Virus record (IMG/VR): IMGVR_UViG_3300021964_009390
Location: 1 to 64,000 of that record
DNA from: a virus
Reading direction: 5' to 3' (one strand)
Length of the DNA stretch: 64,000 bases
This document shows, in pieces, positions 1,088 through 60,215 of the stretch. The notes below the pieces were generated by a model. The model was not told the DNA's origin. It saw nothing but the letters and a program-made list of their open reading frames with translations, and did not search any database. How positions within the stretch are numbered: the stretch's first letter is position 1; each line of letters starts with the position of its first letter. The position numbers were made by a program, and so were the translations under genes.

Positions 1088-1532
1088 AGACGAGAGATAC
1101 AAACAAGGGGTGTACCGCCCTATAAACAAAAAATATACCGGTAAGCATTATCCTAAATACAGAAGTAGTTGGGAGTTAAAATTTTTTAGATGGTGTGACC
1201 TGAATCCAAACGTTGTAGAATGGAACAGTGAAAATGTAGTGATACCATATCGTATAGGTAACGGTAAACCTCGCCGATACATAGTTGACAACACTGTGTC
1301 CATGAAACAAAATGGTTGTATCAAGAAATATCTTGTTGAAATCAAACCTTACGCGCAAACACAACCACCCAAACCACATGGAAACAAAAAACGTAGTACT
1401 TTGATATACGAGCAATACACATATGCAAAAAACAAAAGCAAATGGCTTGCTGCGAAACAATGGTGTAGCAAGCACGGTTACCAATTCATGATACTCACCG
1501 AACGCGAGTTATACAACAAGCGTACTAAATAA
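1077..1532 (+). CDS. 4: Head completion nuclease, T4 gp4 (gp50)-like
   Basis: 151 residues. In T4, gp4 acts at the end of head filling, before tail joining, and has a TnsA-like endonuclease fold. The features expected of this family are visible: YRSSWELKFFRWCDLNPNVVEW near residues 27-48, a central RRYIVDN strand, the VEIKPYAQTQPPKP stretch (E-x-K nuclease-type motif) around residue 107, and the C-terminal KWLAAKQWCSKHGYQFMILTE. Length matches the family (about 150). It overlaps the preceding gene by 11 bases in another frame. Confidence 0.85.
   Translation: MHHKDERYKQGVYRPINKKYTGKHYPKYRSSWELKFFRWCDLNPNVVEWNSENVVIPYRIGNGKPRRYIVDNTVSMKQNGCIKKYLVEIKPYAQTQPPKPHGNKKRSTLIYEQYTYAKNKSKWLAAKQWCSKHGYQFMILTERELYNKRTK
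1525..1531 (+). promoter_or_regulatory. Late promoter box CTAAATA
   Basis: CTAAATA, the cyanophage-type form of the T4 late box, overlaps the stop of the gp4-like gene. Exactly five bases separate it from the ATG at 1537. Confidence 0.7.
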
Positions 1533-1536
1533 TTAT

Positions 1537-1845
1537 ATGAAATATATAATGATAACATGCTTACTTTTGACCGGATGCTTGTCTTCAGTCGTGAAACATC
1601 ATAAATCCGCATCGGTATCCAACGCTACTGTTGAACCTACCGTACCATTTGTAACTAATGTCGAAACGACTTTACCTCGAAACAGCGTCAATCCTGGTAC
1701 ATATGACCTGACAAATGATATTATGTTAATAATTGGTACAATAATCATGCTGATATGTTTCGCACCTCTAATACTATCTTTTCTAGACTATTCAATAGAA
1801 ATTGTTCGTGATAAAATATCGAACTTAATTAACAAGACTAAATAA
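1537..1845 (+). CDS. Small lipoprotein with a membrane segment
   Basis: 102 residues. The N-terminus is a lipoprotein signal with lipobox LLLTGC (Cys 14), followed by a Ser/Thr-rich linker, a hydrophobic segment around residues 62-84 and a basic tail. A lipid anchor plus a transmembrane segment would put it in the cell envelope. Together with the next membrane protein it could be part of a lysis cassette (spanin- or holin-like), but no specific family is recognised. The start is fixed by the late box five bases upstream. Confidence 0.6.
   Translation: MKYIMITCLLLTGCLSSVVKHHKSASVSNATVEPTVPFVTNVETTLPRNSVNPGTYDLTNDIMLIIGTIIMLICFAPLILSFLDYSIEIVRDKISNLINKTK
1838..1844 (+). promoter_or_regulatory. 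Late promoter box CTAAATA
   Basis: The box overlaps the stop codon of the lipoprotein gene and lies exactly five bases before the ATG at 1850. Confidence 0.7.
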
Positions 1846-1849
1846 TTAC

Positions 1850-2281
1850 ATGTTTGGGAGTGTATTAAACACAATTATAGGGGCTGGTATCAAAATAGGT
1901 GCCAACTTAATAAGCGCGTGGATTGAACAACGTAAAGTTGATAGAACATTAATGGCCGCGCGGGATGAAAATATACTCAAGATGATAGCAGAGAGTCAAA
2001 AAGAAACAAGAAGCGACCCGTTTGTAAAAACTACTCGGAGAATATTGTTCTTAGCACTCACATTCACCTACTGTTATTTAATGATATTTTACGCGTTGAA
2101 TCCTGATATAACATACCAAATTGTAAAACCAGCAGACCCCAGCGGTGGTATTTTGAGCTGGTTTTTTGGTGATACACAATGGGTGACATTCAACCTAACC
2201 GGTGGTTTGTTATTAGCAAGTTTTGTTGATTTAATGTTCATGGTTATAGGTTTTTACGCCATTCCTAGTAACAAAAGGTAG
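1850..2281 (+). CDS. Phage membrane protein, possible holin
   Basis: 143 residues: an N-terminal hydrophobic/glycine-rich helix (GSVLNTIIGAGIKIGANLIS), a charged helix, then two membrane segments (about residues 64-82 and 113-136) separated by a loop containing GGILSWFFGDTQW. The C-terminal LTGGLLLASFVDLMFMVIGFY is a clear transmembrane helix. The topology suits a holin or a virion membrane protein; position between a lipoprotein and the prohead protease does not decide. Function is not established. Confidence 0.55.
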   Translation: MFGSVLNTIIGAGIKIGANLISAWIEQRKVDRTLMAARDENILKMIAESQKETRSDPFVKTTRRILFLALTFTYCYLMIFYALNPDITYQIVKPADPSGGILSWFFGDTQWVTFNLTGGLLLASFVDLMFMVIGFYAIPSNKR

Positions 2282-2301
2282 TAGTATTTTCCGTTCTCGG
2301 A

Positions 2302-2308
2302 CTAAATA
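2302..2308 (+). promoter_or_regulatory. Late promoter box CTAAATA
   Basis: The box lies eight bases before the ATG at 2317, which would leave about a three-base leader. Confidence 0.65.
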
Positions 2309-2316
2309 CTCGTATT

Positions 2317-2988
2317 ATGGCATTTAAGTTACTAGTGGAAAAACCTGACATGCACGAGTTTGAATACATTCTCGAGGAGCAAAACGACAAATCAGAAAGC
2401 AATTTGTACGTCTCTGGCCCGTATATGCAATTTGGAGAAAAGAACCGAAACGGTCGAATATACGAAGAACGGGAGATGTGTACTGAAGTGAACCGGTACA
2501 TAAAAGAGATGGTCAATGAAAAAAGATCGTTAGGGGAGCTAAACCACCCCACAAGCGCGGAAGTGAATCCAGAAAAGGCATGTCATATGGTTACTGAGCT
2601 CAAACAAAACGGTAATATATTTTTCGGAAAATCTAAAGTGTTGGGTACACCATGTGGACAAATCATGAGAAGCTTGATAATGGATGGTGTGAAACTTGGC
2701 ATGAGTAGCCGCGCGTTAGGCCAATTGGAAGAAAAGGAAGACGCTAATTATGTTAAAGAAATGAGACTAGTGGCAGTAGATTGTGTAGCAGATCCTAGCT
2801 TTCCAAAAGCTTTTGTGAATGGTATACTAGAAAGTAAAAATTACGTGCTCACACAGGATGGAGGTTTCAGTGAAACTTACGAAGATTTTGAAGCTGGTAT
2901 AAAAAATTTACCAAAAAAAGATCTAGATACATATTTAAAAGAACAAATTTGTATGTTTTTAAATAGAATTAACCAAGTGATTGACTAA
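2317..2988 (+). CDS. 21: Prohead protease, T4 gp21-like
   Basis: 223 residues. The serine protease of the prohead core matures scaffold, capsid and internal proteins, cutting after (L/I)-x-E. Recognisable features: GRIYEEREM near residue 47, LGELNHPTSAEVNPEKACHM near 73 (His of the catalytic set), then the GVKLGMSSRALGQL stretch near 126-139 with the Ser-Ser of the active site, and VDCVADPSFPKAFV near 154. The order protease, small gene, scaffold, capsid is T4-like. It has its own late box upstream. Confidence 0.9.
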   Translation: MAFKLLVEKPDMHEFEYILEEQNDKSESNLYVSGPYMQFGEKNRNGRIYEEREMCTEVNRYIKEMVNEKRSLGELNHPTSAEVNPEKACHMVTELKQNGNIFFGKSKVLGTPCGQIMRSLIMDGVKLGMSSRALGQLEEKEDANYVKEMRLVAVDCVADPSFPKAFVNGILESKNYVLTQDGGFSETYEDFEAGIKNLPKKDLDTYLKEQICMFLNRINQVID

Positions 2989-4149: not shown

Positions 4150-5706
4150 ATGTCAAAAGTTATTAAACCAACTCAAGCTTATATCGATGAAAGTCGCGCA
4201 AGGGTGTTGCTCGAGAAGTGGGGTCCAGTACTCGACTACAACTCAGCAAATGTAGCACCTATTGAAGATGATCATACACGTCTCAACACAGCCATGCTTT
4301 TGGAAAACCAAGAGTCTTGGTGTTTGAATGAGGCCAATGTAGCAGGTGGAACTGGTGCAGTATTCGGCGGTCCTTCCGCTGGTGCCGGTGCACAAGGTGG
4401 AGTCTTCCCAGGTTCTGGGGACACTGCTTATGCACAAGGTGACGCACGTCTGCCAAAGATCCTCATCCCGATGATTCGTCGTACATTCCCAGAGTTGTTG
4501 ACTAATGAATTAGTAGGTGTTCAGCCAATGAGCGGTCCTGTAGGGCTCGCTTTTGCTTTGCGTTACAAGTACAGCGACACAATGCTTGGAGAGACTAACA
4601 ACAACGGTAAAGACGGAAGTCTTGGATCCGGAGTGTCAGGTCCTGCAGGTACAGACGCGTACAGTGCCGCGGCCGGAAATGCCGGTCCTGGTGGTCGTAA
4701 TGTTCCGGGCAACCTCAATGGTAGCCCAGTCGCTGGTGAACTTGGATATCAATATCTTGATACCCGCTTCACTGGTAAGAGCAGCGCGGCTCTTCAAGGT
4801 TCAGATATCTCCCAAACTTCTGGTACATTCGGGCTCAGCCCCGGGAAAGGTACCGTCAATTGGGACGCATTGAATCAGGACGCTGGTGTAGCAGCTCTCT
4901 TGGGTGAATTCGAATTAGGAAGTAACATTCCTACAATCGAGGTCAGTTTCGAGAAAACAGCTGTTGAAGCCGGAACACGTAGGCTTGCTGCCAACTGGAG
5001 TGTGGAACTCGAACAAGACTTGAAGAACATGAACGGTATCGACATTGATACTGAGCTCACCAACGCGATGAGCTACGAGCTTCAAGCCGAAATCGATCGT
5101 GAGATGATTGTTCGTATGATCCAAACAGCACTTCAAGGAGGAATCGGCAAAGGCTACAGTGCATGGTTTGCTGAAACCGCTGATGGACGTTGGATGGCAG
5201 AACGTAACCGTGACCTTTACGCAAAACTCATCGTTGAAGCAAATCGTATAGCGATCCGCAACCGTCGTGGTGCAGCAAACTTTATTGTTGCTAGCCCGTC
5301 CGTTTGCGCGATACTAGAGATGCTTCCTGAGTTTACATGGATGCCTGTCAATGGTTCCGTCAACACACAACCTGTTGGCGTTGCTAAGGTAGGTAACCTA
5401 GGCGGAAGGTTCAACGTTTACAGAGACACCCGTACTGAGGCTCAAAAGGAACAAGGTTTACGTTCCAATCAAGTCGAGTACGCACTCTTAGGATACAAGG
5501 GACCAGAGTTTTATGATACTGGTATCATATACTGCCCTTACATCCCTGTGATGGTTCAACGCACTATTGGCCCTAACGACTTCAGTCCACGTGTTGGACT
5601 ACTCACCCGTTACGGTGTTGTAGACAACATTTTTGGTGCTGAGTTGTACTACCATGTAGTACTAGTCGGTGGGCTCAAGGGTGGTTTGTCAACAGGACAC
5701 CTCTGA
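4150..5706 (+). CDS. 23: Major capsid protein, T4 gp23-like
   Basis: 518 residues, matching gp23 (about 520). Recognisable: an N-terminal head-targeting region, a glycine-rich segment after it, RTFPELLTNELVGVQPMSGPVGLAFALRYKY near residue 113-143, the central EQDLKNMNGIDIDTELTNAMSYELQAEIDREM and C-terminal GPNDFSPRVGLLTRYG. A likely gp21 site is CLNE|ANVAGG (after Glu 61), comparable to the T4 cut near residue 65. Unlike many late genes here it has a proper Shine-Dalgarno, AAGGAG at about 4133-4138, which sets the start and suits very high expression. Confidence 0.97.
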   Translation: MSKVIKPTQAYIDESRARVLLEKWGPVLDYNSANVAPIEDDHTRLNTAMLLENQESWCLNEANVAGGTGAVFGGPSAGAGAQGGVFPGSGDTAYAQGDARLPKILIPMIRRTFPELLTNELVGVQPMSGPVGLAFALRYKYSDTMLGETNNNGKDGSLGSGVSGPAGTDAYSAAAGNAGPGGRNVPGNLNGSPVAGELGYQYLDTRFTGKSSAALQGSDISQTSGTFGLSPGKGTVNWDALNQDAGVAALLGEFELGSNIPTIEVSFEKTAVEAGTRRLAANWSVELEQDLKNMNGIDIDTELTNAMSYELQAEIDREMIVRMIQTALQGGIGKGYSAWFAETADGRWMAERNRDLYAKLIVEANRIAIRNRRGAANFIVASPSVCAILEMLPEFTWMPVNGSVNTQPVGVAKVGNLGGRFNVYRDTRTEAQKEQGLRSNQVEYALLGYKGPEFYDTGIIYCPYIPVMVQRTIGPNDFSPRVGLLTRYGVVDNIFGAELYYHVVLVGGLKGGLSTGHL

Positions 5707-8891: not shown

Positions 8892-8929
8892 TGTTGATAA
8901 TGCAGCTTCTACATTATATAATATGTTAT

Positions 8930-9730
8930 ATGAAAATTGAAGTTTCTCATGAGAGCCCGTTAAGCCTTTTAGATAAATCATTAGAATACAACGACTATTG
9001 TTACGCATTAGTACATCTGTTCGAACAATACCCGGAATATTATAATTTCTTCAAAAATGCAAAAGATGTTCATGACAAATGTGTGTATCTAGACAACAGT
9101 ATATTCGAACTAGGTACCAGCTTCGAACCTAAAAGTTACAGCAAATGGATAGAACAGCTGCAACCTAATGTGTATATCGTTCCGGACACATTAGAGGATG
9201 GTAAGGAGACAATTACACAATTTTATACATTCACTGGTGAATACACGAGTTTACCAGGTATAAAGATGGGAGTGGTTCAAGGTAAGACATATGATGATCT
9301 AGTTAGATGTTACAGTTTCATGAGCGAGTATGCAGATATTGTTGCTATAAGCTTTGACTATTCATACTATTTATCCACCGGAGTGGGTAACACTAAACTA
9401 GAAAGGTACATGAATGGTCGTAAAAAATTTATACAAGATTTAATAAATGAAAATCGATGGAACTGGGCAAAGCCAGTACATTTACTAGGTTGTAGTTTGG
9501 CTAGAGAATTCACATACTATGTAGACAACAACATACACAACATCAGAAGCTGTGACACATCAAACCCGATAGTTGCATCTATGTTCGATTTAAAATACAA
9601 TGATGAATGGGGATTGAATGAGAAACCATCGCAAAAATTAGCGGATATGTTAGAAGCAAACTTGAATGACGACCAAATGGAACTTTTAGAGTATAATTTG
9701 AAAATGTTTAAGAAAATTTTAAGAAGATGA
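8930..9730 (+). CDS. dpdA: DpdA-like guanine transglycosylase for DNA modification
   Basis: 266 residues from ATG 8930 (a longer frame to 8810 would overlap the divergent gene and adds non-homologous residues). It resembles the phage DpdA branch of tRNA-guanine transglycosylases, which swap guanine in DNA for a 7-deazaguanine. YLDNSIFELG (Asp 55) corresponds to the first active-site Asp region of TGT, and SCDTSNP (Asp 209) to the nucleophile region. Between lie IKMGVVQGKT, VAISFDYSYY and VHLLGCSLAREF. It overlaps by four bases a formyltransferase, with QueF 2 kb downstream, which supports the modification role. No zinc site is evident. Subfamily is not certain. Confidence 0.75.
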   Translation: MKIEVSHESPLSLLDKSLEYNDYCYALVHLFEQYPEYYNFFKNAKDVHDKCVYLDNSIFELGTSFEPKSYSKWIEQLQPNVYIVPDTLEDGKETITQFYTFTGEYTSLPGIKMGVVQGKTYDDLVRCYSFMSEYADIVAISFDYSYYLSTGVGNTKLERYMNGRKKFIQDLINENRWNWAKPVHLLGCSLAREFTYYVDNNIHNIRSCDTSNPIVASMFDLKYNDEWGLNEKPSQKLADMLEANLNDDQMELLEYNLKMFKKILRR

Positions 9731-11064: not shown

Positions 11065-11079
11065 TTTATAATATATACA

Positions 11080-11637
11080 ATGTTAATTAGTTTCACAGGT
11101 GCGCAAAGTACTGGTAAGAGTACACTATTAGAACGTATGGTGAGTGATGTAAAATTTAGAAAATGTTCATTCATCAAAGAAGTTACACGTAAAGTTGCCC
11201 GGCAAGGAGTGAATATAAATGACTCTGGTGACAATATAACTCAGCTATTGATATTATCAGAGCATATAAACAATCATATCATGCGCGGTTGCACGGTTTT
11301 AGATCGGTGCATAGTAGATGGCTTGATATATACTGAATGGTTGTATAATGAAGGCAAAGTAGACAAATGGGTATATGAATATGCTGTCAACTTACACAAC
11401 GCATTATTACCTAAACTAGACATTATATTTTATACAAACCCAGCAGATGTACCATTAGTAAACGATGGTCAGAGGAGCGTGAACAAAGAATTTAGGGAGG
11501 GTATAATACGGCTATACAACGAATATTACGAGTGTAACACTATAGCTAGAGACAAGACTGTAACATTATCAGGCACAGTTGATCAAAGATACAAAACCAT
11601 TACAAACACTTTAAAAAATCATGACACAACTAGATAA
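11080..11637 (+). CDS. P-loop NTPase / nucleoside kinase-like (AAA_28, NadR-like)
   Basis: 185 residues. Walker A GAQSTGKST at 7-15, then FIKEVTRKVARQG, a DRCIVDGL motif near residue 76 (Walker B/DR pattern of the NadR kinase domain) and IIFYTNPADVP. This family includes nicotinamide-riboside and other small-molecule kinases. Substrate is unknown. It is preceded by a host-type -10 (TATAAT) region and overlaps QueF by 17 bases. Confidence 0.65.
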   Translation: MLISFTGAQSTGKSTLLERMVSDVKFRKCSFIKEVTRKVARQGVNINDSGDNITQLLILSEHINNHIMRGCTVLDRCIVDGLIYTEWLYNEGKVDKWVYEYAVNLHNALLPKLDIIFYTNPADVPLVNDGQRSVNKEFREGIIRLYNEYYECNTIARDKTVTLSGTVDQRYKTITNTLKNHDTTR

Positions 11638-12554: not shown

Positions 12555-12561
12555 ATAAATA
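12555..12561 (+). promoter_or_regulatory. Late promoter box ATAAATA
   Basis: Exactly five bases before the ATG at 12567. Confidence 0.7.
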
Positions 12562-12566
12562 ATGTT

Positions 12567-13193
12567 ATGAGTGATGAAGCTAGTATATTACGTACCGGTC
12601 CTTTGCAACCAGTCCAGCCACATGTGACGCGCCGCCGGGAGCGGATGATGGAACAGGACATGTCTGATACCGCGTTCAGACAAGAGCAAGCGATCAAGAA
12701 AAACAAAATAGGTGATGCAACTGCTGTGGTGGCGGACCAAGCAGAGGCCGCGGCGGATGCTGGTACACCGTTTACAAAAAAACAACTCGCCCAAACAGCA
12801 GTGGAGGTGCTTTCTCAGATGAATTTTGAAGTACCGTCTCAATCTGGGAAAATGATCGAACGAGACCCATCACAACAAGGTAGCCAATTTAGTTTACCAG
12901 AATACGGGTATTATATGGATTTGATAGAACTAGCAACAGAGGGTATACCTATTGAGTACCCAAAAGGTAACTTAACAACCAAAGGTGTGAAACCAGAGAC
13001 CCCGGAACGATTCCGGAATGTATTTGAAGGTGGTTTGAAAAAAGCTCGTAACCGGATAAGTGATGACCCGGAATTAAAAGAGGTGTTACCACAATATGTT
13101 AGAGAACAAAAATCCGGCATGCCAGTGCCATTGAGTATACCCAAACTAGACAATTTCACAAGCCTGAACCAATTTATCAACAGACATAGTTGA
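12567..13193 (+). CDS. Late-expressed protein of unknown function
   Basis: 208 residues, start fixed by a late box five bases upstream. Helical, highly charged N-terminal half with an Ala-rich stretch (ATAVVADQAEAAADA) and Gln-rich parts; C-terminal half has PETPERFRNVFEGGLKKARNRI. No signal peptide or membrane segment. Late timing suggests a virion or assembly protein, but no family is recognised. Confidence 0.6.
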   Translation: MSDEASILRTGPLQPVQPHVTRRRERMMEQDMSDTAFRQEQAIKKNKIGDATAVVADQAEAAADAGTPFTKKQLAQTAVEVLSQMNFEVPSQSGKMIERDPSQQGSQFSLPEYGYYMDLIELATEGIPIEYPKGNLTTKGVKPETPERFRNVFEGGLKKARNRISDDPELKEVLPQYVREQKSGMPVPLSIPKLDNFTSLNQFINRHS

Positions 13194-14852: not shown

Positions 14853-14892
14853 AGGTGTTGATATCACATGAAAAATAAACTATATATATTAT

Positions 14893-16959
14893 ATGAGCCA
14901 ACAAGACATTTATAATTTATCCGACCTATTAACATCTACTGCATCAGAAACTGATTATGGTGCCTTGAATTGGACTGGTACTTTTGACGAATACCTGGAC
15001 ATAGTGAATGAAACTCCAAAAGTAACTAGGAACTCATATCAGCGTATGTATGACATGGTAATGTCCCATGGTACAGAGGAAGTCAATTACTGTAAACAAA
15101 CATATACAAAATATAAATTTTTCGCTAGCGGTAAGGATGGTGACATAAGTATTTACGGTTTGGAAGAACCGTTGATGGAACTTGTAGATGTATTGAGATC
15201 CGCTGCGTATCACTATGGACCAGAGCGCAGAATCATATTGCTGCACGGTCCAGTAGGTAGTAGCAAATCGACGATAGTAACCACATTGAAAAAGGGATTA
15301 GAACAATATTCAATCACCGATCCATTGTATTCATTCACCTGGTGTGTGGAAGATGATAATGGTACACCAGTTGAAGTTCCATGCCCCATGAATGAAGAGC
15401 CATTGAAATTGTTACCGGAAGCCGCTAGGAAGAACATTGTTGAACGTATCAACAATTCACTAGCCAACGATGATTATAGAATCAAACTAGATGGCAATTT
15501 GTCACCAGTGTCCGAGTTTTACAGAGATAAGTTGCTGAAAAAATATAACGGTGATTTTAACAAAGTACTATCACACGTCAAAGTGAGACGTGTTATATTG
15601 TCTGAAAAATCAAGAGTAGGTATAGGAACATTTCAACCGAAAGATGAAAAGAGTCAAGATGCTACTGAATTAACAGGCGACATAAACTACAGAAAGCTAG
15701 CTCAATATGGTAGTGAGAGTGACCCACGTGCTTTTGACTTTGATGGTGAATTTTTGATATCAAACAGAGGCATGGTTGAGTTTCAAGAGATCCTCAAATT
15801 GCAAACAGAGTTTTTGTACGACCTCTTGGGAGCCACGCAAGAGCATCGAGTCAAGCCTAAACGATTCAATCAAGTACCGATAGATGAAGTGATTATAGGT
15901 CACACCAACAACGCAGAATATGACAAGCTGAAAAACAATAAGTTCATGGAGGCTCTACGTGACAGAACCATAAAAATAGATGTACCGTACTTACTGAAAA
16001 TAAATGATGAGAAAAAAATATACGATTATTTCTACAATCAACACACGGTACACAAACACATCGCACCACATACTACATATCTTGCTGCGCTGTATGCAGT
16101 AGTGTCACGTCTAGAAAAACCGGTCAAGAATGACATGAGTATAATCCAAAAAGCAAAATTGTACAACGGAGTTGGTGTACATGGTTTCACAGAAGAACAT
16201 GTCAAGGAGATGTTAGAAGAGACACCTAACGAAGGTTTGTTGTCTGGTGTGAGTGCGCGTTTCATACAGAATCAATTTAGTAACGCTATTGTGAACCCTA
16301 GGATGGGTAAAAAAAGTATCAATCCTTTCATGCTGTTCTCGCAAATACGAGACGGTATCAAAAATTATTCCGGTTTCAACAGCGAGGATCTGCGCGCTGA
16401 AGCGTTAGAAAGATTGGAACTAGTCGAGAAAGAATATGACCGTATAGTGAAAAGAGAGGTACAACAAGCGCTCAGCAGTAGTGAAGAGGCCATCAAAACG
16501 TTGTGTACAAATTATATTGACAACGTTGTTGCTTTTGTAAACGATGAAAAGGTGACCAACCCCATTACTGGTAAAGATGAACCGGCTAATGAAAAGATGA
16601 TGAGATCTATTGAGGAAAAAATAAATGTCTCTACCAATATGAAAGAAGATTTCCGTCGTGAGATCATGAATTATATGGGTTCACTGGCAGCAAAAGGTAA
16701 GTCATTTAAATACGATAGTAACGAGCAATTGCATAAAGCCCTAGAAAAGAAGTTGTTTGAAGATATTAAAGACAGTATCAAACTATCCGCGCTGGCACAA
16801 GACACGGCCACTGTGGTAGACAAGGAGTTACTTGATAAAATCAACGCACTCAAGCAACGACTGGTGAAAGACTTTGGGTATGATGAAGATAGTGCTCATG
16901 ATGTTCTCGTGTATGTGGGGAGTATATTTGCCCGAGGTGACGACGTAGGAGACAAGTAA
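14893..16959 (+). CDS. prkA: PrkA-type serine kinase (YeaG family)
   Basis: 688 residues, close to the family length (about 640). It has an AAA+ core with P-loop GPVGSSKST (119-127) followed by a C-terminal kinase-like region. PrkA/YeaG phosphorylates proteins under starvation in bacteria. Diagnostic stretches include YKFFASGKDGDISIYGLEEP before the P-loop, RGMVEFQEILK, and the IIGHTNNAEYDKLKNNKFMEALRDR motif. The next two genes are its usual partners, with ATG/stop overlaps, so the three are one operon. The start at 14893 follows an AT-rich host-type promoter region. Confidence 0.92.
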   Translation: MSQQDIYNLSDLLTSTASETDYGALNWTGTFDEYLDIVNETPKVTRNSYQRMYDMVMSHGTEEVNYCKQTYTKYKFFASGKDGDISIYGLEEPLMELVDVLRSAAYHYGPERRIILLHGPVGSSKSTIVTTLKKGLEQYSITDPLYSFTWCVEDDNGTPVEVPCPMNEEPLKLLPEAARKNIVERINNSLANDDYRIKLDGNLSPVSEFYRDKLLKKYNGDFNKVLSHVKVRRVILSEKSRVGIGTFQPKDEKSQDATELTGDINYRKLAQYGSESDPRAFDFDGEFLISNRGMVEFQEILKLQTEFLYDLLGATQEHRVKPKRFNQVPIDEVIIGHTNNAEYDKLKNNKFMEALRDRTIKIDVPYLLKINDEKKIYDYFYNQHTVHKHIAPHTTYLAALYAVVSRLEKPVKNDMSIIQKAKLYNGVGVHGFTEEHVKEMLEETPNEGLLSGVSARFIQNQFSNAIVNPRMGKKSINPFMLFSQIRDGIKNYSGFNSEDLRAEALERLELVEKEYDRIVKREVQQALSSSEEAIKTLCTNYIDNVVAFVNDEKVTNPITGKDEPANEKMMRSIEEKINVSTNMKEDFRREIMNYMGSLAAKGKSFKYDSNEQLHKALEKKLFEDIKDSIKLSALAQDTATVVDKELLDKINALKQRLVKDFGYDEDSAHDVLVYVGSIFARGDDVGDK

Positions 16960-21323: not shown

Positions 21324-21331
21324 TATAAATA
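21324..21331 (+). promoter_or_regulatory. Late promoter box TATAAATA
   Basis: Exact T4 consensus; exactly five bases before the ATG at 21337. Confidence 0.7.
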
Positions 21332-21336
21332 TACAC

Positions 21337-21546
21337 ATGGAAATAGATCGTATAGAGGTCAAAAAAATTATTGAACAAGAGGTAAAACCTAATGAAAATT
21401 TAATAGTATGGACAGATGCATATATACGAGGTATAAAAAAAACATTCGATGAGCAAAAATTAGTGTATAATGTGGAGTCAGAAGTTGCTAAACAACGTAT
21501 CATAACGTACGTTATGGAACGTCTAGAAAACGAACTCAGAGAATGA
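21337..21546 (+). CDS. Small charged helical protein
   Basis: 69 residues (MEIDRIEVKKIIEQEVKPNE...), acidic and basic residues mixed, probably all helix. The start at 21337 is preferred over an upstream TTG because a consensus late box lies five bases before it. Overlaps the HAD gene by four bases. Unknown function. Confidence 0.55.
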   Translation: MEIDRIEVKKIIEQEVKPNENLIVWTDAYIRGIKKTFDEQKLVYNVESEVAKQRIITYVMERLENELRE

Positions 21547-23025: not shown

Positions 23026-23252
23026 GGTACGTATATAAAAGTACTAGTTACAGTGTTCCTTGGATGTACACAGGCTTTGAACACTTCTTGGTAACCTAAG
23101 TTCTTCAATCTGATAGATAATGGAAAATAAAATTCATGTTCTACATTGACTAAAATACTCAAGTTACCAGTGTCTAGTACCACGTATCTACAGAATTCTT
23201 CACAAAGCGCCATGGCTCTAGATTCTACATCGGTTATGTTACTATTGTCCAT
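23022..23252 (-). CDS. Small late protein, unknown
   Basis: 76 residues from ATG 23252 (MDNSNITDVESRAMALCEEF...). A longer frame to 23321 is rejected because a minus-strand late box (23258-23264) sits exactly five bases before 23252. No domain recognised. Confidence 0.55.
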   Translation of the reverse strand: MDNSNITDVESRAMALCEEFCRYVVLDTGNLSILVNVEHEFYFPLSIRLKNLGYQEVFKACVHPRNTVTSTFIYVP

Positions 23253-23257
23253 ATAAC

Positions 23258-23264
23258 TATTTAG
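23258..23264 (-). promoter_or_regulatory. Late promoter box CTAAATA (minus strand)
   Basis: Exactly five bases before the minus-strand ATG at 23252. Confidence 0.65.
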
Positions 23265-23285: not shown

Positions 23286-23292
23286 GTAAATA
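23286..23292 (+). promoter_or_regulatory. Late promoter box GTAAATA
   Basis: Exactly five bases before the GTG at 23298; G in the first position is a variant. Confidence 0.55.
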
Positions 23293-23297
23293 ATCAC

Positions 23298-23834
23298 GTG
23301 AATATTGATACATTTGAACAAAGCATACTAGATGTGTCGGGAATCCGGCAACGTAATTTAATAGTTCCAGCGAAGCTGGCGGCTGAAAAACCAGACACAG
23401 GTGTGAAAATCTTGAAAAAAAGTGCATATTATGTTATAAAGGATTGCGCGAGTATAGCATGTCAGTATGTCACCTTGTTAGCATATGCCAGTTTATCAGA
23501 CCCTATCAAACAACTACAAGGAGCATTCACCCGTGAATCCGTAGAAGATTTCGTCAAAAGATCCAAAGAAGAACATCAAACTAACCAATTGCTCACGTTG
23601 ATATTCGCAGACATTAGCAAATTTGCACCACCCAAAGTCATAATAAACATAGACAAAGGACCGGAGTTTAATTTCAACAACGAAGATGGTCCGTACGGTG
23701 ATTATAATTACGATGGTTATTTGGATCCTGATGATTATGTAGAACATGACCCAGAGGTGGTGATAGAAAAAATTGACATGACAGATGACACTATAGTGAT
23801 ATCAAAATTGTTAGAAATATTTAAAATTAAATAA
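23298..23834 (+). CDS. Acidic-tailed unknown protein (GTG start)
   Basis: 178 residues. GTG start set by a GTAAATA box five bases before it. N-terminal part VNIDTFEQSILDVSGIRQRN is followed by a mixed helical domain; the C-terminal third is strongly acidic and aromatic (GPYGDYNYDGYLDPDDYVEHD). Acidic tail suggests a partner-binding or DNA-mimic character, but that is speculation. Confidence 0.55.
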   Translation: MNIDTFEQSILDVSGIRQRNLIVPAKLAAEKPDTGVKILKKSAYYVIKDCASIACQYVTLLAYASLSDPIKQLQGAFTRESVEDFVKRSKEEHQTNQLLTLIFADISKFAPPKVIINIDKGPEFNFNNEDGPYGDYNYDGYLDPDDYVEHDPEVVIEKIDMTDDTIVISKLLEIFKIK

Positions 23835-23841: not shown

Positions 23842-23848
23842 CTAAATA
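23842..23848 (+). promoter_or_regulatory. Late promoter box CTAAATA
   Basis: Exactly five bases before the ATG at 23854 (Hc1-like histone). Confidence 0.7.
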
Positions 23849-23853
23849 AACAT

Positions 23854-24033
23854 ATGAGTGAAACACATGAAAATATCTTAGAAGCAATTGATGCTTATCT
23901 AGAAGAAAACGCTAAATTTGAAGAAAAAGGTGTAAAAGCTGCCGCGACTAGGGCGCGTAAAGCTCTTATGGATCTTAAAAATTTGGCGCATGATCGGCGG
24001 AAAGAGATACAGGACAAGAAAAACTCCGGGTAA
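23854..24033 (+). CDS. Hc1-type histone-like protein
   Basis: 59 residues, easily missed by length filters. The stretch KFEEKGVKAAATRARKALMDL then KNLAHDRRKEIQDKK matches the histone H1-like Hc1 family (chlamydial and Verrucomicrobia/Bacteroidetes nucleoproteins), in which a KxxxKGxKAAxTRxRKAL core is diagnostic. Such proteins condense DNA. It has a late box five bases upstream, so it may be made for packaging or for compacting host or phage DNA late in infection. It lacks the long Lys/Ala-rich tail of chlamydial Hc1. Confidence 0.8.
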   Translation: MSETHENILEAIDAYLEENAKFEEKGVKAAATRARKALMDLKNLAHDRRKEIQDKKNSG

Positions 24034-26749: not shown

Positions 26750-26756
26750 CTAAATA
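26750..26756 (+). promoter_or_regulatory. Late promoter box CTAAATA
   Basis: Exactly five bases before the GTG at 26762. An ATG two bases earlier opens a different frame of only 31 codons. Confidence 0.65.
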
Positions 26757-26761
26757 AGTAT

Positions 26762-26926
26762 GTGGATCAGGAAGGGCAAGAGTCGATTGAGCAACTCAAA
26801 AATCAATTGGACAAGCAAAGACAAGAAATACAGTGGTTACAATCTGAGCTCATGAGATATAAAATGTTATTGGAGGGTAAAGATGTGATGATGAACTCAC
26901 TTCCGACCACTAGACCTGATGCGTGA
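26762..26926 (+). CDS. 54-residue coiled-coil protein (GTG start)
   Basis: The frame beginning at GTG 26762 encodes a heptad-patterned helix, SIEQLKNQLDKQRQEIQWLQ, then SELMRYKMLLEG. Late box spacing selects the GTG over the ATG two bases upstream. It overlaps the opposite-strand gene at 26897 by 30 bases. Possibly a small virion or assembly factor. Confidence 0.5.
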   Translation: MDQEGQESIEQLKNQLDKQRQEIQWLQSELMRYKMLLEGKDVMMNSLPTTRPDA

Positions 26927-27067: not shown

Positions 27068-27072
27068 ATGTA

Positions 27073-27079
27073 TATTTAT
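27073..27079 (-). promoter_or_regulatory. Late promoter box ATAAATA (minus strand)
   Basis: Exactly five bases before the minus-strand GTG at 27067; back to back with the plus-strand box at 27091. Confidence 0.65.
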
Positions 27080-27090: not shown

Positions 27091-27097
27091 ATAAATA
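27091..27097 (+). promoter_or_regulatory. Late promoter box ATAAATA
   Basis: Exactly five bases before the GTG at 27103. Confidence 0.7.
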
Positions 27098-43372: not shown

Positions 43373-43401
43373 GTTGACTTATGCCAATTTATATTATACA
43401 A
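43373..43401 (+). promoter_or_regulatory. Host sigma70-type promoter
   Basis: TTGACT, 17 bases, TACAAT upstream of the LOG-family gene at 43408, i.e. close to TTGACA-17-TATAAT. This differs from the late boxes and suggests early expression. Confidence 0.5.
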
Positions 43402-43407
43402 TAATAT

Positions 43408-44124
43408 ATGGAGTACAACCCGAAACATCGCAGAAGAACTAGAGAAACAAAAGCATACAACAACAACACTTTTCTGAACAGCAGAGAGGCTCGAAACATC
43501 CGCGTACAATGCGAGGTGATGGAACCGGGAATGAGACTAGATCGGCTAGGAGTTGACAACATGATCACATTTTTCGGAAGCGCCAGAACCAAACCAAACC
43601 ACCCGGATTATATAGACGCGTACAAACTAGCGTACAAACTAGGTACATGGACCAAAAAACATGCACCTACCACAGGTATATCCAGCGGCGGTGGTCCGGG
43701 TATAATGGAAGCCACAAACAAAGGTGCATATGACAGTGGTGCCAAAAGCATAGGGATGGGTATCAGTCTCCCGTTCGAACAGCACAATAACGAATATATC
43801 TCACCTGATTTGGATTTTGAATTCCATTACTTTTTCACTCGCAAATACTGGTGTGTATATTTGAGCAAGGCATATGTGATGATGCCCGGTGGAGTAGGTA
43901 CCATGGACGAGCTGTTCGAGGTGTTGACACTGATACAGACACAAAAAATAAAACAACCCAAACCTATTGTTTTATATAATACAGACTTTTGGAAAAAAAC
44001 TGTGAATTTCTCCCGTATGATTGACCAGGGTACAATAGGTGAGGACGATCTAGAGTTGTTCGAGTATCACGATGACACGCAGACTGCATATGATTATATT
44101 GTCTCAAACATACATTTGACATAA
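43408..44124 (+). CDS. LOG family protein (TIGR00730-like)
   Basis: 238 residues. SGGGPGIMEATNKGAYD (about 91-107) and MMPGGVGTMDELFEVLT (about 155-171) are the GGGxGIM and PGGxGTxxE motifs of LOG/nucleoside 5'-monophosphate phosphoribohydrolases. It would release a base from a nucleotide. A basic N-terminal extension precedes the domain. Role in a phage could be nucleotide salvage or signal degradation. Confidence 0.85.
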   Translation: MEYNPKHRRRTRETKAYNNNTFLNSREARNIRVQCEVMEPGMRLDRLGVDNMITFFGSARTKPNHPDYIDAYKLAYKLGTWTKKHAPTTGISSGGGPGIMEATNKGAYDSGAKSIGMGISLPFEQHNNEYISPDLDFEFHYFFTRKYWCVYLSKAYVMMPGGVGTMDELFEVLTLIQTQKIKQPKPIVLYNTDFWKKTVNFSRMIDQGTIGEDDLELFEYHDDTQTAYDYIVSNIHLT

Positions 44125-44127
44125 ATA
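44121..44127 (+). promoter_or_regulatory. Late promoter box ATAAATA
   Basis: Exactly five bases before the GTG at 44133; the ATG two bases earlier is followed at once by a stop (ATGTGA). Confidence 0.7.
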
Positions 44128-44132
44128 ACTAT

Positions 44133-44375
44133 GTGACCGCAAAAGGTGAGCCAGTATTTCATATATATTTGATATTCATTTTATGCTGTTTGTGTTACGG
44201 TGGTTGGTCACTGTTCAAGTATATTAAATACATGGAAGATACGATTGAACTCCAGTTAGAAGCTATAGACAAACAGAACCAAGAAAACCAAGCGTTAAAG
44301 AACTACATGCTAATGATGCAGCAATACAATCAATCACCAACACATCGATACCAGCCAACACCTCAGCAATTGTAA
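44133..44375 (+). CDS. Small membrane-anchored coiled-coil protein (GTG start)
   Basis: 80 residues: a membrane helix (IYLIFILCCLCYGGWSLF), a coiled coil (DTIELQLEAIDKQNQENQALK) and a Gln/Pro tail. The late box spacing proves the GTG choice. Ends abut the stop of the convergent pyrophosphatase with no gap, within a perfect 14-base palindrome (44369-44382). Confidence 0.6.
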   Translation: MTAKGEPVFHIYLIFILCCLCYGGWSLFKYIKYMEDTIELQLEAIDKQNQENQALKNYMLMMQQYNQSPTHRYQPTPQQL

Positions 44376-45277: not shown

Positions 45278-45284
45278 TTAAATA
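45278..45284 (+). promoter_or_regulatory. Late promoter box TTAAATA
   Basis: Exactly five bases before the ATG at 45290; an overlapping ATAAATA at 45282 does not fit the spacing. Confidence 0.6.
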
Positions 45285-45289
45285 AATAC

Positions 45290-46057
45290 ATGAGCGATCG
45301 AGACGATAAAAAAATATTTGAATCATACACAGACTCCCCGGCTTCAACTCGACCGGGTTCATACATAAGCCGGTTGATACAATCCGCAAAAGACCGAAAA
45401 TCCCGGGGAAGACAGGAAACAGAAACACATAAAGGTTTCAGTTCGGATGACCAACGCGAGGATGATGAACGTGAGATGGAACGTATCATGGCATTGCAAA
45501 AATTCGGTCATGGAGCAGATTACAACACACCATTTGAAGAGACTGACCACAGCAAGGATGACCCGGCATTAGCTCCTGGTGACAAACGTATGAAGGATGG
45601 GAGCGTGGTAGACAAGGATGGTAAAGTGGTGTACAAACCCAAACCAAAAGTTGCCAAAGAGAAGAAAAAGCCGGATGGTGATAGTGATGGAGTGCCGGAC
45701 TGGGCGGACAAACATCATGGTGAAGATGACCATGCTAAGAAAAGAGTGGCTAAAGAAGGTACCAAGGGTACTCGATCAGATCGCGAAAAAGCTGATGTTA
45801 ATGACGATGAAAAAATAGAACCATGGGAAAAGGCCCGGGCGAACGCCATTCGAAAGTCTCAAGGTAAAACGCATTTATGTGCTAAAACAGTGAATCATGA
45901 AAGTTATGGACCAGGTGCCACAATACATGGTCAACACGCCATACCGGACGTGAACGGAAACATCGAGTGGTACATGGTCGAGTTCAAACATGGAACAGAA
46001 AAGGTACGTACAGAAGATGTTGAAGTCGTTTTTGCTGTTGAACATCACCACAATTAA
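45290..46057 (+). CDS. Acidic/basic late protein with Ca-binding-like loop
   Basis: 255 residues. Leader MSDRDDKKIFESYTDS fits the second leader motif seen here (D-x-x-L/I-I-W/F-E-S/N-Y) with an I-F-E gp21-type site. The middle is charged and disordered; DGDSDGVPDWADKHHGEDDH looks like a thrombospondin-3/EF-hand Asp loop. The end ESYGPGATIHGQHAIPDVNG plus VEFKHGTEKVRTEDVEVV is a small folded domain repeated in marine phage proteins. Candidate packaged protein. Confidence 0.65.
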   Translation: MSDRDDKKIFESYTDSPASTRPGSYISRLIQSAKDRKSRGRQETETHKGFSSDDQREDDEREMERIMALQKFGHGADYNTPFEETDHSKDDPALAPGDKRMKDGSVVDKDGKVVYKPKPKVAKEKKKPDGDSDGVPDWADKHHGEDDHAKKRVAKEGTKGTRSDREKADVNDDEKIEPWEKARANAIRKSQGKTHLCAKTVNHESYGPGATIHGQHAIPDVNGNIEWYMVEFKHGTEKVRTEDVEVVFAVEHHHN

Positions 46058-52875: not shown

Positions 52876-52882
52876 ATAAATA
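52876..52882 (+). promoter_or_regulatory. Late promoter box ATAAATA
   Basis: Exactly five bases before the ATG at 52888; lies in the tiny divergent gap with uvsE. Confidence 0.7.
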
Positions 52883-52887
52883 AGTAT

Positions 52888-53418
52888 ATGAGCATAAACC
52901 AAGACACGCAACTAATATGGGAGAATTACAACTATTCATTCGACAAAGATTCCATGATAAATCACGCGGTAAAAATGCACCAGAAACATGGTGCTGGGAT
53001 TGACGAGATAAAAGAAACATTGATGGCTGCGGCGATGTCCGGTGGTCCGGAACAAGCACATCATGTGGCGCAGTATTTAAAAAGTGATGAATTCACTAAC
53101 GAACTTAAAAATCGTTTACAGTCTCTAGATGATGAGATGATGCACGAGGAGCTTGACCGAGGAGACGAAGCTGGTGATTATACTGCGTTTTTGAAGGAGA
53201 TGGCACGAGAGCTGGTGAGAAACGACATGCCGGAGGAGGAAGCAATGGAAATTGTGTTGAGTCATCCATTTGAAGAAACATACGGTGAATATTTGAGAGT
53301 CAGAGGAGCAGCCGGTGTATACACAGCCGCTCAAAAGCACAAAGAACTAGCGGAAAAGTCCGGATATTACCATGAGGTTGACATGAACATGTTACAAAAT
53401 TGGAAGTATGTTAGCTAG
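52888..53418 (+). CDS. Late protein with LIWENY leader
   Basis: 176 residues from ATG 52888. Leader MSINQDTQLIWENYNYS carries an I-W-E gp21-type site. Remainder is helical and charged (EELDRGDEAGDYTAFLKEMARELVRND). Candidate packaged protein; a longer upstream frame is rejected by the promoter position. Convergent with rmlB, overlapping four bases. Confidence 0.65.
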   Translation: MSINQDTQLIWENYNYSFDKDSMINHAVKMHQKHGAGIDEIKETLMAAAMSGGPEQAHHVAQYLKSDEFTNELKNRLQSLDDEMMHEELDRGDEAGDYTAFLKEMARELVRNDMPEEEAMEIVLSHPFEETYGEYLRVRGAAGVYTAAQKHKELAEKSGYYHEVDMNMLQNWKYVS

Positions 53419-54384: not shown

Positions 54385-54391
54385 ATAAATA
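54385..54391 (+). promoter_or_regulatory. Late promoter box ATAAATA
   Basis: Exactly five bases before the ATG at 54397; an earlier ATG at 54393 does not fit. Confidence 0.7.
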
Positions 54392-54396
54392 TATGT

Positions 54397-54918
54397 ATGT
54401 TAGAACGATTCGATAATCTATATGAAAAGCACCTTCCGGAGGAAAAAAAGAAAGGTTTAGACGGCAAAGCATGTTGGAAAGGATATCGACAACAGGGCAC
54501 CAAAAAGAAGGGTAACAAAACTGTCGACAACTGCGTGAAGGTCGGTGAGGGTTTATGGGCCAATATAAACAAGAAAAATAAGTCCGGTCGTAAATCAGCC
54601 AGCAAAGGAAGCAAAGCCTACAAAGCCGCTGTCAAAGCCGGAGACAAGCTAGAAGCCACCAAGGAAAGTATTGCTGCTGAGAAAAATGCACAATGCACTG
54701 GACCTACTAAAAAAGCCAGTAGCACCAGCAAAGGTAAAAAATGGATGAAATGTGTGAAAAGTGACAGCGGTGGTTACAAACGTATACACTGGGGTCAAAA
54801 AGGAGTCAAAGTGAGCGGCAAAGCAAACACCAAAAGACGTAAAAGCTTCAGAGCTCGTCACAAATGTAGCACGGCCAAAAGCAACACACCACGCGGACAA
54901 GCATGCAAGGACTGGTAG
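54397..54918 (+). CDS. Highly basic Lys/Ser-rich protein (DUF5872-like)
   Basis: 173 residues. Leader MLERFDNLYEKHL with an L-Y-E site. Then GKACWKGYRQQGTKKKG, VGEGLWANINKKNKSGRKSA, GSKAYKAAVKAGDKLEATKES and C-terminal WMKCVKSDSGGYKRIHWGQK, FRARHKCSTAKSNTPRGQAC. Very high pI. This domain mix occurs in phages and giant viruses without known function; charge suggests DNA binding, possibly packaged with DNA. Confidence 0.75.
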   Translation: MLERFDNLYEKHLPEEKKKGLDGKACWKGYRQQGTKKKGNKTVDNCVKVGEGLWANINKKNKSGRKSASKGSKAYKAAVKAGDKLEATKESIAAEKNAQCTGPTKKASSTSKGKKWMKCVKSDSGGYKRIHWGQKGVKVSGKANTKRRKSFRARHKCSTAKSNTPRGQACKDW

Positions 54919-58390: not shown

Positions 58391-58410
58391 AAACATTTAA
58401 ACAATATTAG
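58387..58410 (+). pseudogene. Orphan MKTFKQY leader
   Basis: ATG AAA ACA TTT AAA CAA TAT TAG encodes only MKTFKQY, identical in pattern to the leaders of packaged-protein candidates. Overlaps the SGNH stop by four bases. Likely the surviving start of a deleted gene. Confidence 0.55.
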
Positions 58411-58412
58411 AT

Positions 58413-58520
58413 ATGAAATACAAATTTACAAAAAATTGGTTCGATGACTCAGCAATAAAAAAAATAACATATAAGTTGCGGATTAGTCAAAATACCTATA
58501 AATATATAGTATATGAATGA
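58413..58520 (+). pseudogene. Truncated methyltransferase start
   Basis: A 35-codon frame begins MKYKFTKNWFDDSAIKKITYK, like the start of the methyltransferase at 47620 (MKNYKYTKQWFTSKDLEQFL), then runs into the next promoter and ends. No methyltransferase motifs follow. Confidence 0.5.
58497..58504 (+). promoter_or_regulatory. Late promoter box TATAAATA
   Basis: Exact T4 consensus; eight bases before the ATG at 58513, so about a three-base leader for the DUF1501 gene. Confidence 0.7.
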
Positions 58521-59781
58521 TTTAAGCCGCCGCGAATTTGTAAGTACAGTTGCCAAAAGCTGTTTAGGAGTGAGCGCCATACTGAGCGCTCAAGATTTAT
58601 TAGCAATCAAACCCACCGGGCAGATACCAACCGCTCGGAATGTTATATTTTTATACATGGCAGGAGGCATGACTCACATCGACACGTTCGACCCAAAACC
58701 GGAGAACAGTGACGTGATGGGTGAAACAACTGCCATTGACACTACAGCGGACGGGGTACAGATAGGCAACTGGTTACCCAACACCGCCAAACAGATGCAC
58801 AACGCAAGTTTGATACGTACATTGTCGTCCAATCAAGGTGCACATGCACAAGCCAACTATTTGTTACACACCAGCTACCAACGCCGCGGCACGATCGTGC
58901 ATCCAACCATGGGTGCATGGGTGAGCAAACAGACACCCAAACTGAATCGATCGTTACCATCTAACGTGAGAATCAACGGAGGTAGCGACATATTAGGTTC
59001 CGGTTATTTGGAGAAAAAACACGGACCGTTACCATTGGGTAACCCCAACGCAGGTATACAAAATGTGTCACAGGCCAAGTATCTGGACGAGACCATGTAC
59101 AACAAACGGATGGACATATCCAGCAAATTCAACAAAAATTTCTTAGACATGTTCCCACAAAAGCAAGTACGTGCATACACTGATTTATATGATGATGCCA
59201 TCCGGTTGATGAAAAGCACAGATCTTGAAGCGTTCGATCTGACAAAAGAAGACCAAGCCACTCGAGACATGTACGGTACCAACAGTTTTGGTCAGGGCTG
59301 CCTATTAGCTAGACGGTTGGTTGAGACTGGTGTACGTTATGTCGAGGTGCAGCTAGGTGGTTGGGACATGCACAACGATGTGTTTGGTAACATGGAGACA
59401 CGAGGTGCTACATTGGACAATGGATTGGCTTCGTTGTTACAAGATTTGAACCGTCGTGGTCTGTTGAGCTCCACACTAGTTGTTGTGGCGAGTGAATTTG
59501 GTCGTACACCAGAGGTCAAAGCAGGCCGCGTGGGACGTGACCATCACCCATCTGCATTCAGCGCCATGTTGGCCGGAGGAGGAGTCAAAGGAGGTTACGT
59601 ACATGGCAAGAGCGACAAGCGTGGTCACTATGTAGAAGAGAAAGGTGTGAAAATGGAAGATCTGAACGCCACGATTGCTTACATGATGGGAATGGACATC
59701 ACTGAAACAATCTATTCTCCAAGTGGCAGACCATTTAAAATTGCTAATGCGGGTGAGGTTGTAACTGACATTTTAGCATAA
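58513..59781 (+). CDS. DUF1501 protein, Tat-exported
   Basis: 422 residues. Twin-arginine signal LSRREFVSTVAKSCLGVSAI. NVIFLYMAGGMTHIDTFDPKP (about 37-57), SNQGAHAQANYLLHTSYQRRGTIVHPTMGAWVS, and the alkaline phosphatase-like ASEFGRTPEVKAGRVGRDHHP (about 329-349) are DUF1501 hallmarks. The family, related to sulfatase/phosphatase folds, usually sits beside DUF1549/DUF1553 genes in planctomycetes; here the partner is 7.5 kb upstream. A late promoter shows it has been taken into phage control. Confidence 0.93.
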   Translation: MNDLSRREFVSTVAKSCLGVSAILSAQDLLAIKPTGQIPTARNVIFLYMAGGMTHIDTFDPKPENSDVMGETTAIDTTADGVQIGNWLPNTAKQMHNASLIRTLSSNQGAHAQANYLLHTSYQRRGTIVHPTMGAWVSKQTPKLNRSLPSNVRINGGSDILGSGYLEKKHGPLPLGNPNAGIQNVSQAKYLDETMYNKRMDISSKFNKNFLDMFPQKQVRAYTDLYDDAIRLMKSTDLEAFDLTKEDQATRDMYGTNSFGQGCLLARRLVETGVRYVEVQLGGWDMHNDVFGNMETRGATLDNGLASLLQDLNRRGLLSSTLVVVASEFGRTPEVKAGRVGRDHHPSAFSAMLAGGGVKGGYVHGKSDKRGHYVEEKGVKMEDLNATIAYMMGMDITETIYSPSGRPFKIANAGEVVTDILA

Positions 59782-59784
59782 ATA
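59778..59784 (+). promoter_or_regulatory. Late promoter box ATAAATA
   Basis: Overlaps the end of the DUF1501 gene; exactly five bases before the ATG at 59790. Confidence 0.7.
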
Positions 59785-59789
59785 ATGAC

Positions 59790-60215
59790 ATGCACGACAA
59801 AGACCACCACCTGATATGGGAATCATATTTTGATGAGACTGTAGCCACACCTAAAAACATTGAACGTGTGAGGTCCACATTGAACGATCCGGACCTGCAA
59901 GAACATGAACGACAGCTCATAATAGACACGTTACGCGAGCTAGAGAGACTAGCCACAACACAAGACATCAAAACTGTCAAGCAGAGCATCATGGACAAGC
60001 TGGGCAAGATGCTAGGACGTGAGCGAGTCAATGAACAGGGTAACTATGCCCGGATTGTGGCGGATGAAGAAAAGTTTTTAGAAATAGCGTACAAGTATTA
60101 CGGAGACATGGAAGAAGCCGAGCTGAAATTCCACCACTATGTACTGGAGGAGTTGCTAGAGATGGACGAGCTGACACGTCGCGAGTATCAAGGCCAAGGA
60201 CCACAGCGAGACTAA
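59790..60215 (+). CDS. Late protein with LIWESY leader
   Basis: 141 residues. Leader MHDKDHHLIWESYFDETV with I-W-E and F-D-E sites. The rest is all helix with charged heptads (ERVRSTLNDPDLQEHERQLI). Candidate internal or structural protein; first of three small genes in a row. Confidence 0.65.
   Translation: MHDKDHHLIWESYFDETVATPKNIERVRSTLNDPDLQEHERQLIIDTLRELERLATTQDIKTVKQSIMDKLGKMLGRERVNEQGNYARIVADEEKFLEIAYKYYGDMEEAELKFHHYVLEELLEMDELTRREYQGQGPQRD

Follow-up and report, generated by a model that had tools for sequence, protein, structure and literature searches.

Promoters positioned at start codons and predicted leaderless messages in an uncultured clade of the T4 superfamily

The genome and its late promoter boxes

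The virus record IMGVR_UViG_3300021964_009390 (IMG/VR; 222,461 bp, hereafter G000) belongs to an uncultured branch of the T4 superfamily, and its bases 1-64,000 (the window) carry a series of genes whose start codons stand exactly five bases downstream of NTAAATA, the core of the T4 late promoter. Judged from sequence, the record and its relatives very probably form a clade with promoters fused directly to the start codon, so that late genes and many early genes are leaderless. An initial annotation of the window had proposed a leaderless late regulon from 17 protein starts and one transfer-messenger RNA (tmRNA). The boxes of the window are as follows, with coordinates running from the box through the start codon of the open reading frame (ORF).

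1526..1539, plus strand: late box, five nucleotides (nt), ATG; lipoprotein-like ORF 1537-1845; caller favours 1591, start ambiguous
1839..1852, plus strand: late box, 5 nt, ATG; ORF 1850-2281
2303..2319, plus strand: late box 8 nt before ATG; head maturation protease 2317-2988; the box is at 5 in the orthologues of five of five relatives
12556..12569, plus strand: late box, 5 nt, ATG; ORF 12567-13193
21326..21339, plus strand: late box, 5 nt, ATG; ORF 21337-21546
23250..23263, minus strand: late box, 5 nt, ATG; ORF 23022-23252, divergent from 23298
23287..23300, plus strand: late box, 5 nt, GTG; ORF 23298-23834; class kept in 2 of 3 orthologues found
23843..23856, plus strand: late box, 5 nt, ATG; ORF 23854-24033
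26751..26764, plus strand: late box, 5 nt, GTG; ORF 26762-26926
27065..27078, minus strand: late box, 5 nt, GTG; ORF 26897-27067
27092..27105, plus strand: late box, 5 nt, GTG; ORF 27103-28803, 566 amino acids
29150..29163, plus strand: late box, 5 nt, ATG; ORF 29161-29439
31644..31657, minus strand: late box, 5 nt, ATG; glycosyltransferase ORF 29457-31646
32219..32232, minus strand: late box, 5 nt, ATG; ORF 31682-32221
44122..44135, plus strand: late box, 5 nt, GTG; ORF 44133-44375; start ambiguous
45279..45292, plus strand: late box, 5 nt, ATG; ORF 45290-46057
52877..52890, plus strand: late box, 5 nt, ATG; ORF 52888-53418; caller favours 52855
54386..54399, plus strand: late box, 5 nt, ATG; ORF 54397-54918; class kept in G001, G002 and G004
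59779..59792, plus strand: late box, 5 nt, ATG; ORF 59790-60215; the upstream gene ends on the TAA of this box

Genes of G000 were called with our own coding-potential caller (301 genes, 94% coding), and distance plots were made over the whole record on both strands. A capsid-protein scan of viral contigs returned at least 599 related stretches, of which the best 80 were used. Five large uncultured relatives, G001-G005, have capsids 65-69% identical to that of G000 (reciprocal best hit); close relatives at the DNA level were not found among sequenced phages. T4, KVP40, Syn9 and S-PM2 and the cultured marine phages HTVC008M, Mosig and Melnitz served for comparison.

A fixed distance between box and start codon

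Each of the 17 starts of the initial annotation was re-read and has TAAATA, five bases and then ATG or GTG. The coding-potential caller supports 14 of these as true gene starts and prefers alternatives for the other three (1591 over 1537, 44232 over 44133 and 52855 over 52888), although 1537, which gives a product with a lipoprotein-like signal peptide at its N terminus, could be right after all. One further start of the same kind, at 32221 on the minus strand (TAAATAATAACATG), had been overlooked. Within the window TAAATA occurs 102 times against 86 expected, a mild excess, so the unusual feature of the box is its position rather than its abundance.

The distance plot that the initial annotation had proposed has a sharp peak at five, in G000 and in its relatives. 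Counted independently of gene calls, TAAATA-N5-ATG occurs 35 times in G000 (mean ∼6.4 at distances 10-59) and TAAATA-N5-GTG 14 times (about 3.5-4 at other distances), while distances from TAAATA to TTG in G000 have no peak at 5. Among called starts of G000, 33 have the box at 5 and any other single distance has 0-9; counts are 7, 7, 7 and 5 at distances 6-9 and ∼1 per position thereafter. Called starts with a box at 5 number 33, 29, 33, 15, 29 and 13 in G000-G005, respectively, and over the best 80 of the related loci TAAATA-N5-ATG is found 154 times, as against ∼18 for each other distance.

AT-rich composition or the calling of starts might in principle create such a peak, as the genome has a GC content of 39% and TAAATA is common in it. 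Two controls bear on this: 1000 shuffles of the upstream regions of called starts, in which the maximum at any distance was 6, and the reversed pattern, which occurs in G000 6 times at distance 5 and has no peak. In addition, the caller-independent ATG counts peak at 5, the similarly AT-rich T4 (35% GC) and S-PM2 (38% GC) have no peak at their called starts, and the HTVC008M starts described below come from independent annotation. We therefore regard an artefact as extremely improbable.

Among the products of genes with a box at 5 are proteins of the tail tube, baseplate hub and baseplate wedge; the small subunit of ribonucleotide reductase is the one exception. A second tier of ∼25 further genes in G000 has the box 6-9 nt before the start, which predicts a leader of 1-4 nt.

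Several otherwise unrelated late proteins have N-terminal FKQYV or LIWESY motifs in common, found in 8/39 genes with a box at 5 and in 7/262 others (P=1e-4). The carriers start at 27067 (minus), 27103, 29161, 45290, 52888, 56378, 59790 and 60516 in the window and at 101373 and 155283 (minus) elsewhere in G000. A capsid-targeting tag or a propeptide tag is a possible role for these motifs.

Predicted transcription start, conservation and sigma factor

In T4, the late promoter TATAAATA spans positions -13 to -6 relative to the transcription start (PMC1524935). A box so placed, followed by five spacer bases, predicts that +1 falls on the first base of the codon. Position -12 is A in 59% of the boxes and position -13 is T in only 22%. 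The base at -1 is a pyrimidine at 38/39 late starts with a box at 5 in G000, compared with 139/236 others (P=3e-7), and pooled over the six genomes at 126/152 late starts compared with 406/731 others (P=9e-11). This excess is as expected of a -1 pyrimidine/+1 purine initiator. Likewise, TTG starts are absent from the leaderless classes, late and early together (0/273, against 35/731 other genes, P=2e-5), as would be expected if RNA polymerase must begin on a purine.

The arrangement is also conserved. Scored on reciprocal best hits between G000 and G001-G005, with orthologues 20-70% identical, the late class is kept in 42/61 orthologue pairs, as against its appearance in 43/314 others (P=8e-18), and the early class described below is kept in 34/66 pairs, against 41/309 others (P=1e-10). 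No start-locked promoter arrangement was seen in the T4 orthologues checked. A homologue of the T4 late sigma factor gp55 (phrog_234) is encoded at 160766-161164 of G000 (E=3.3e-32), and others are found in all five relatives. What we observe directly is where the boxes lie, their constant distance, the context of the initiator, the conservation and the gp55 homologue; that +1 lies at the codon and that translation is leaderless is what we infer from them.

The second tier could also be read as a sign that the late promoters are of the ordinary T4 type and that their +1 shifts over several bases, with SD (Shine-Dalgarno)-independent leaders of 1-10 nt that are not strictly leaderless. The boxes of G001 that lie 4 or 6 nt from the start, and those of G004 that lie 6 nt from it, point the same way. 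Such variation fits poorly with a distance whose mode is sharp and lies at exactly 5 for the late and 6 for the early class, with start codons that begin only with purines and with the pyrimidine at -1, and we consider it unlikely.

G001 has late boxes in near-equal numbers at 5 nt (29 genes) and 4 nt (24 genes), and a further group at 6; looser selection of +1 and a variant sigma factor are candidate readings. In G004, tandem genes at 12321, 13002, 13705 and 14644 (all minus), whose products begin MADV, each have a late box 6 nt before the start, and the upstream sequence is near-identical in three of them.

Sigma70-like early promoters

K-mers that recur at one distance from starts were searched for blind, and besides TAAATA this gave AAGTTG between -38 and -33 and TATAAT between -12 and -7. 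Scored -35/-10 pairs peak where exactly 6 nt separate the end of the -10 element from the start; the peak comprises 21, 27, 15, 8, 18 and 11 genes of G000-G005, respectively, over a background of 0.2-0.5. A start-locked peak of this kind was sought in T4, KVP40, Syn9, S-PM2 and HTVC008M and was found in none; there, sigma70-like promoters lie more often 20-40 nt upstream. Examples in G000 are 90345 (minus), 90852 (plus), 91107 (plus), 127087 (minus) and 173247 (plus), and the window contains the following.

8917..8932, plus strand: sigma70-like -10 TATAAT, 7 nt before ATG; ORF 8930-9730, early leaderless class
11067..11082, plus strand: sigma70-like -10 TATAAT, 7 nt before ATG; ORF 11080-11637, early leaderless class
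14881..14895, plus strand: sigma70-like -10 TATATA, 6 nt before ATG; ORF 14893-16959; weaker match
43397..43410, plus strand: sigma70-like -10 TACAAT, 5 nt before ATG; ORF 43408-44124; -35 is AAGTTGAC

The class contains genes for DNA polymerase, primase, the replicative helicase, another helicase and the large subunit of ribonucleotide reductase, together with QueC, QueD, GTP cyclohydrolase and thymidylate kinase. Upstream of the DNA polymerase gene, aligned orthologues have TATAAT or TATACT approximately six bases before the start in six of six genomes. Because the sigma70-like promoters of replication genes are start-locked too, leaderlessness would not be specific to late genes.

Beyond the window, a cluster of mostly small ORFs at 89887 (minus), 90345 (minus), 90460 (plus), 90852 (plus), 91107 (plus) and 92177 (plus) of G000 has for each its own AAGTTG...TATAAT-like promoter at the start codon. 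These are probably host-takeover early genes.

Shine-Dalgarno use and the capsid gene

SD-like pairing is found upstream of 32-56% of genes in T4, KVP40, Syn9, S-PM2 and HTVC008M. In genes of the clade that lack a box it is found in 7-22%, as against 4-10% after shuffling, and is thus near chance; in genes of G000-G005 with a box at 4-9, SD-like energy is found in 0-7%. The gene that the initial annotation had singled out as a contrast does differ.

4150..5706, plus strand: major capsid protein (MCP); SD AAGGAG; late box absent within 100 nt

Across the six genomes, the MCP gene has a close box in none and an SD-like stretch in at least four. Two tail genes of G000 combine both signals: the tail sheath gene at 190776 has a late box 22 nt upstream and the SD AGGAAGG, and a tail tube gene at 193504 has a late box 19 nt upstream and the SD AGGAG. 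In most relatives, unlike G000, sheath and tube belong to the leaderless class. The retention of SD sequences at the MCP, sheath and one tube gene indicates that leaderless and SD-led messages coexist.

An AGGTCGA(C)-like element is conserved ∼15-35 nt before the MCP start, both in G000 (4150) and in G001-G005. Near this element G001 has a short hairpin (GTAGA..TCTAC), as does HTVC008M. These features may mark a site where the capsid mRNA is processed, or a structured leader.

The same gap at tmRNA and tRNA genes

A non-coding gene offers a control for the position of +1. ARAGORN and Rfam confirm the tmRNA 5′ end that the initial annotation had placed at 32277, with the box ending at 32271.

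32266..32276, plus strand: late box and 5-nt spacer abutting G1 of the tmRNA; non-coding control with identical geometry
32277..32660, plus strand: tmRNA; ARAGORN; Rfam RF00023, 90.3 bits

The tmRNA is not translated from its 5′ end and has the same five-base gap, which gives independent support for the +1 position.

This bears on a different account of the box, as an mRNA element for translation initiation or spacing, either an A/U-rich site where ribosomes land or a TAA-rich signal that couples stop and start, with transcription starting farther upstream. The weak SD signal genome-wide would make a substitute useful, and 8 of the 33 genes with a box at 5 in G000 have a same-strand upstream TAA stop within or overlapping the box. 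Stop-codon coupling was nonetheless rejected as the reason for the box because it accounts for this minority only: the other 25 boxes have no such overlap, and many stand at the head of divergent transcripts. Moreover, the spacer matches the T4 promoter pattern with a pyrimidine at -1, the early class has the full -35/-10 geometry of sigma70, a gp55 homologue is present, and the tmRNA has box and gap alike. On this evidence a translation element is very unlikely, and we prefer the reading of the boxes as promoters.

The predicted tag of the tmRNA, GDIQDAKRGVQEVLHGIFSEQPALLAA, is unusually long. In front of a tRNA-Thr gene of G000 (80307-80382) stands CAAATA-N5, which differs from the late box in one base and has the spacing seen at the tmRNA.

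Relatives and known systems

Trees of polymerase and capsid proteins place the six uncultured genomes apart from the pelagiphages and methylophages, from T4 and KVP40 and from the cyanophages. The G000 capsid is of T4 type, with a best cultured match of 34% identity. The gene phoH (PF02562) is present in six of six genomes. The uncultured Far-T4 phages, with published contigs from Lake Pavin, have a T4-type MCP outside the near-T4 and cyano-T4 groups, phoH, queuosine and GTP cyclohydrolase genes and no known host, and their promoters were not described (PMC4360716). With its distant T4-type capsid, phoH, its genes for queuosine (QueC, QueD) and GTP cyclohydrolase in G000, and no known host, the present group resembles Far-T4 in capsid distance and gene content.

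The late system shares with that of T4 (gp55/gp33/gp45) the TAAATA core, the spacing from box to predicted +1, the use at virion genes and a gp55 homologue. In T4, KVP40, Syn9 and S-PM2, however, messages have SD-bearing leaders of ∼15-35 nt; no called start has a box at 4-6 nt, and boxes lie mostly ∼20-40 nt upstream. Here the leader is predicted to be absent and positions -13/-12 are degenerate. Cultured pelagimyophages and methylophages have the arrangement at a minority of late genes, with TAAATA-N5-ATG at 9 in HTVC008M, 7 in Mosig and 3 in Melnitz. The HTVC008M cases include, at independently annotated starts, the virion genes for tape measure, DNA end protector, head closure, baseplate tube cap, baseplate wedge and tail completion. 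Start codons of HTVC008M (NC_020484) at which transcription is predicted to begin include 16007 and 18916 (minus) and 18943, 19456, 49760, 75559 and 75830 (plus). HTVC008M differs in having SD sequences at most genes and no start-locked early promoters. A published attempt to predict late promoters in pelagimyophage genomes was unsuccessful (PMC7029224). Rhodothermus phage RM378 was considered as a relative sharing the trait and rejected, with 0 matches.

Leaderless (TA-led) genes of Actinobacteria and Deinococcus-Thermus are marked by a -10-like element ∼12 nt before the start (PMC3160421). The phage genes are similar in their -10 element ∼10-12 nt before ATG or GTG and in the absence of an SD, but here two promoter systems within one phage, one of them run by a phage sigma factor, have the same positioning. 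In late promoters of the phiKZ type, too, the transcription start has a sequence similar to an initiation codon (TATG; PMC7598289); phiKZ has its own multisubunit RNA polymerase and no upstream box, whereas a T4-type gp55 and sigma70-like promoters are found here. A statement that phage transcripts are often leaderless (PMC5312081) cites Escherichia coli work and names no T4 relatives, and the open literature searched yielded nothing on leaderless expression in T4-like phages. Each of the two elements, leaderless genes and T4 late promoters, is known already; no T4-superfamily clade with both promoter systems start-locked turned up in the open literature that we searched.

Genes for ribosomal protein bS21 are present in G001 (39344-39463, minus), G002 (82041-82163, minus), G003 (48822-48959, plus) and G004 (84906-85037, plus), and were looked for and not found in G000 and G005. 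The bS21 gene of G001 has its own late box 4 nt before the start (39520, minus).

Proposed mechanism and points against it

In the mechanism that we propose, a gp55-type sigma would bring RNA polymerase to NTAAATA at -12 to -6, and late transcription would begin with the first base (A or G) of the start codon, or 1-4 nt upstream of it in the second tier. For many early genes, host sigma70 would act on TTG/TATAAT, with the -10 hexamer at -12 to -7 and +1 again on the start codon. The resulting mRNAs would begin with 5′-AUG or 5′-GUG and have no SD; translation would most likely proceed by leaderless initiation, in which the 70S ribosome or 30S-fMet-tRNA recognises the 5′ start codon. Dozens of messages would thus probably lack a leader and a ribosome-binding site, unlike the mRNAs of T4 and cyanophages. 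It also seems fairly likely that the clade runs most of its expression, early (host sigma70) and late (gp55), from leaderless mRNAs as its main route of translation. This route might suit a host poor in SD sequences, or phage bS21, present in 4/5 relatives and not in G000, might assist it. As for the leaderless late regulon originally proposed, the boxes do appear to be T4-type late promoters with a predicted +1 on the start codon, but the early class means that the arrangement is not confined to late genes. As a general statement it was also too broad, with the MCP, sheath and a tube gene SD-led and ∼25 genes having predicted leaders of 1-4 nt.

Several points weigh against this reading. The +1 positions in these phages are predictions from sequence. 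Approximately half of called genes belong to neither promoter class, as would be expected of operon-internal genes; most closely follow another gene and are probably translated from polycistronic messages. In the early class, the preference for a pyrimidine at -1 is not significant (77/121 pooled over six genomes, P=0.11). By Pfam PF02916, gp45 was found only in T4, though this model missed Syn9 and HTVC008M too. Finally, two scans of bacterial genomes for capsid-bearing contigs returned no relatives, and hence no host whose capacity for leaderless translation could be judged.

A Bacteroidota host was considered because SD sequences are rare, and was not adopted: the sigma70 consensus of TTG at ∼-35 and TATAAT at -10 is not of the Bacteroidota type (TTG/TAnnTTTG).

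Significance

Textbooks illustrate staged transcription with T4, whose messages are SD-led. In a large uncultured branch of the same superfamily, the starts of transcription and translation appear to coincide at dozens of genes and under two unrelated sigma factors. As HTVC008M and Mosig, both Pelagibacter phages, come from a host that is in culture, part of this can be tested now. If true, the clade would provide a viral system for leaderless translation, with many natural examples and natural controls in the SD-led capsid, sheath and tube genes, and transcription starts would be predicted at single-base resolution. It would also improve the calling of gene starts in a group whose promoters are hard to find and place a constraint on the host.

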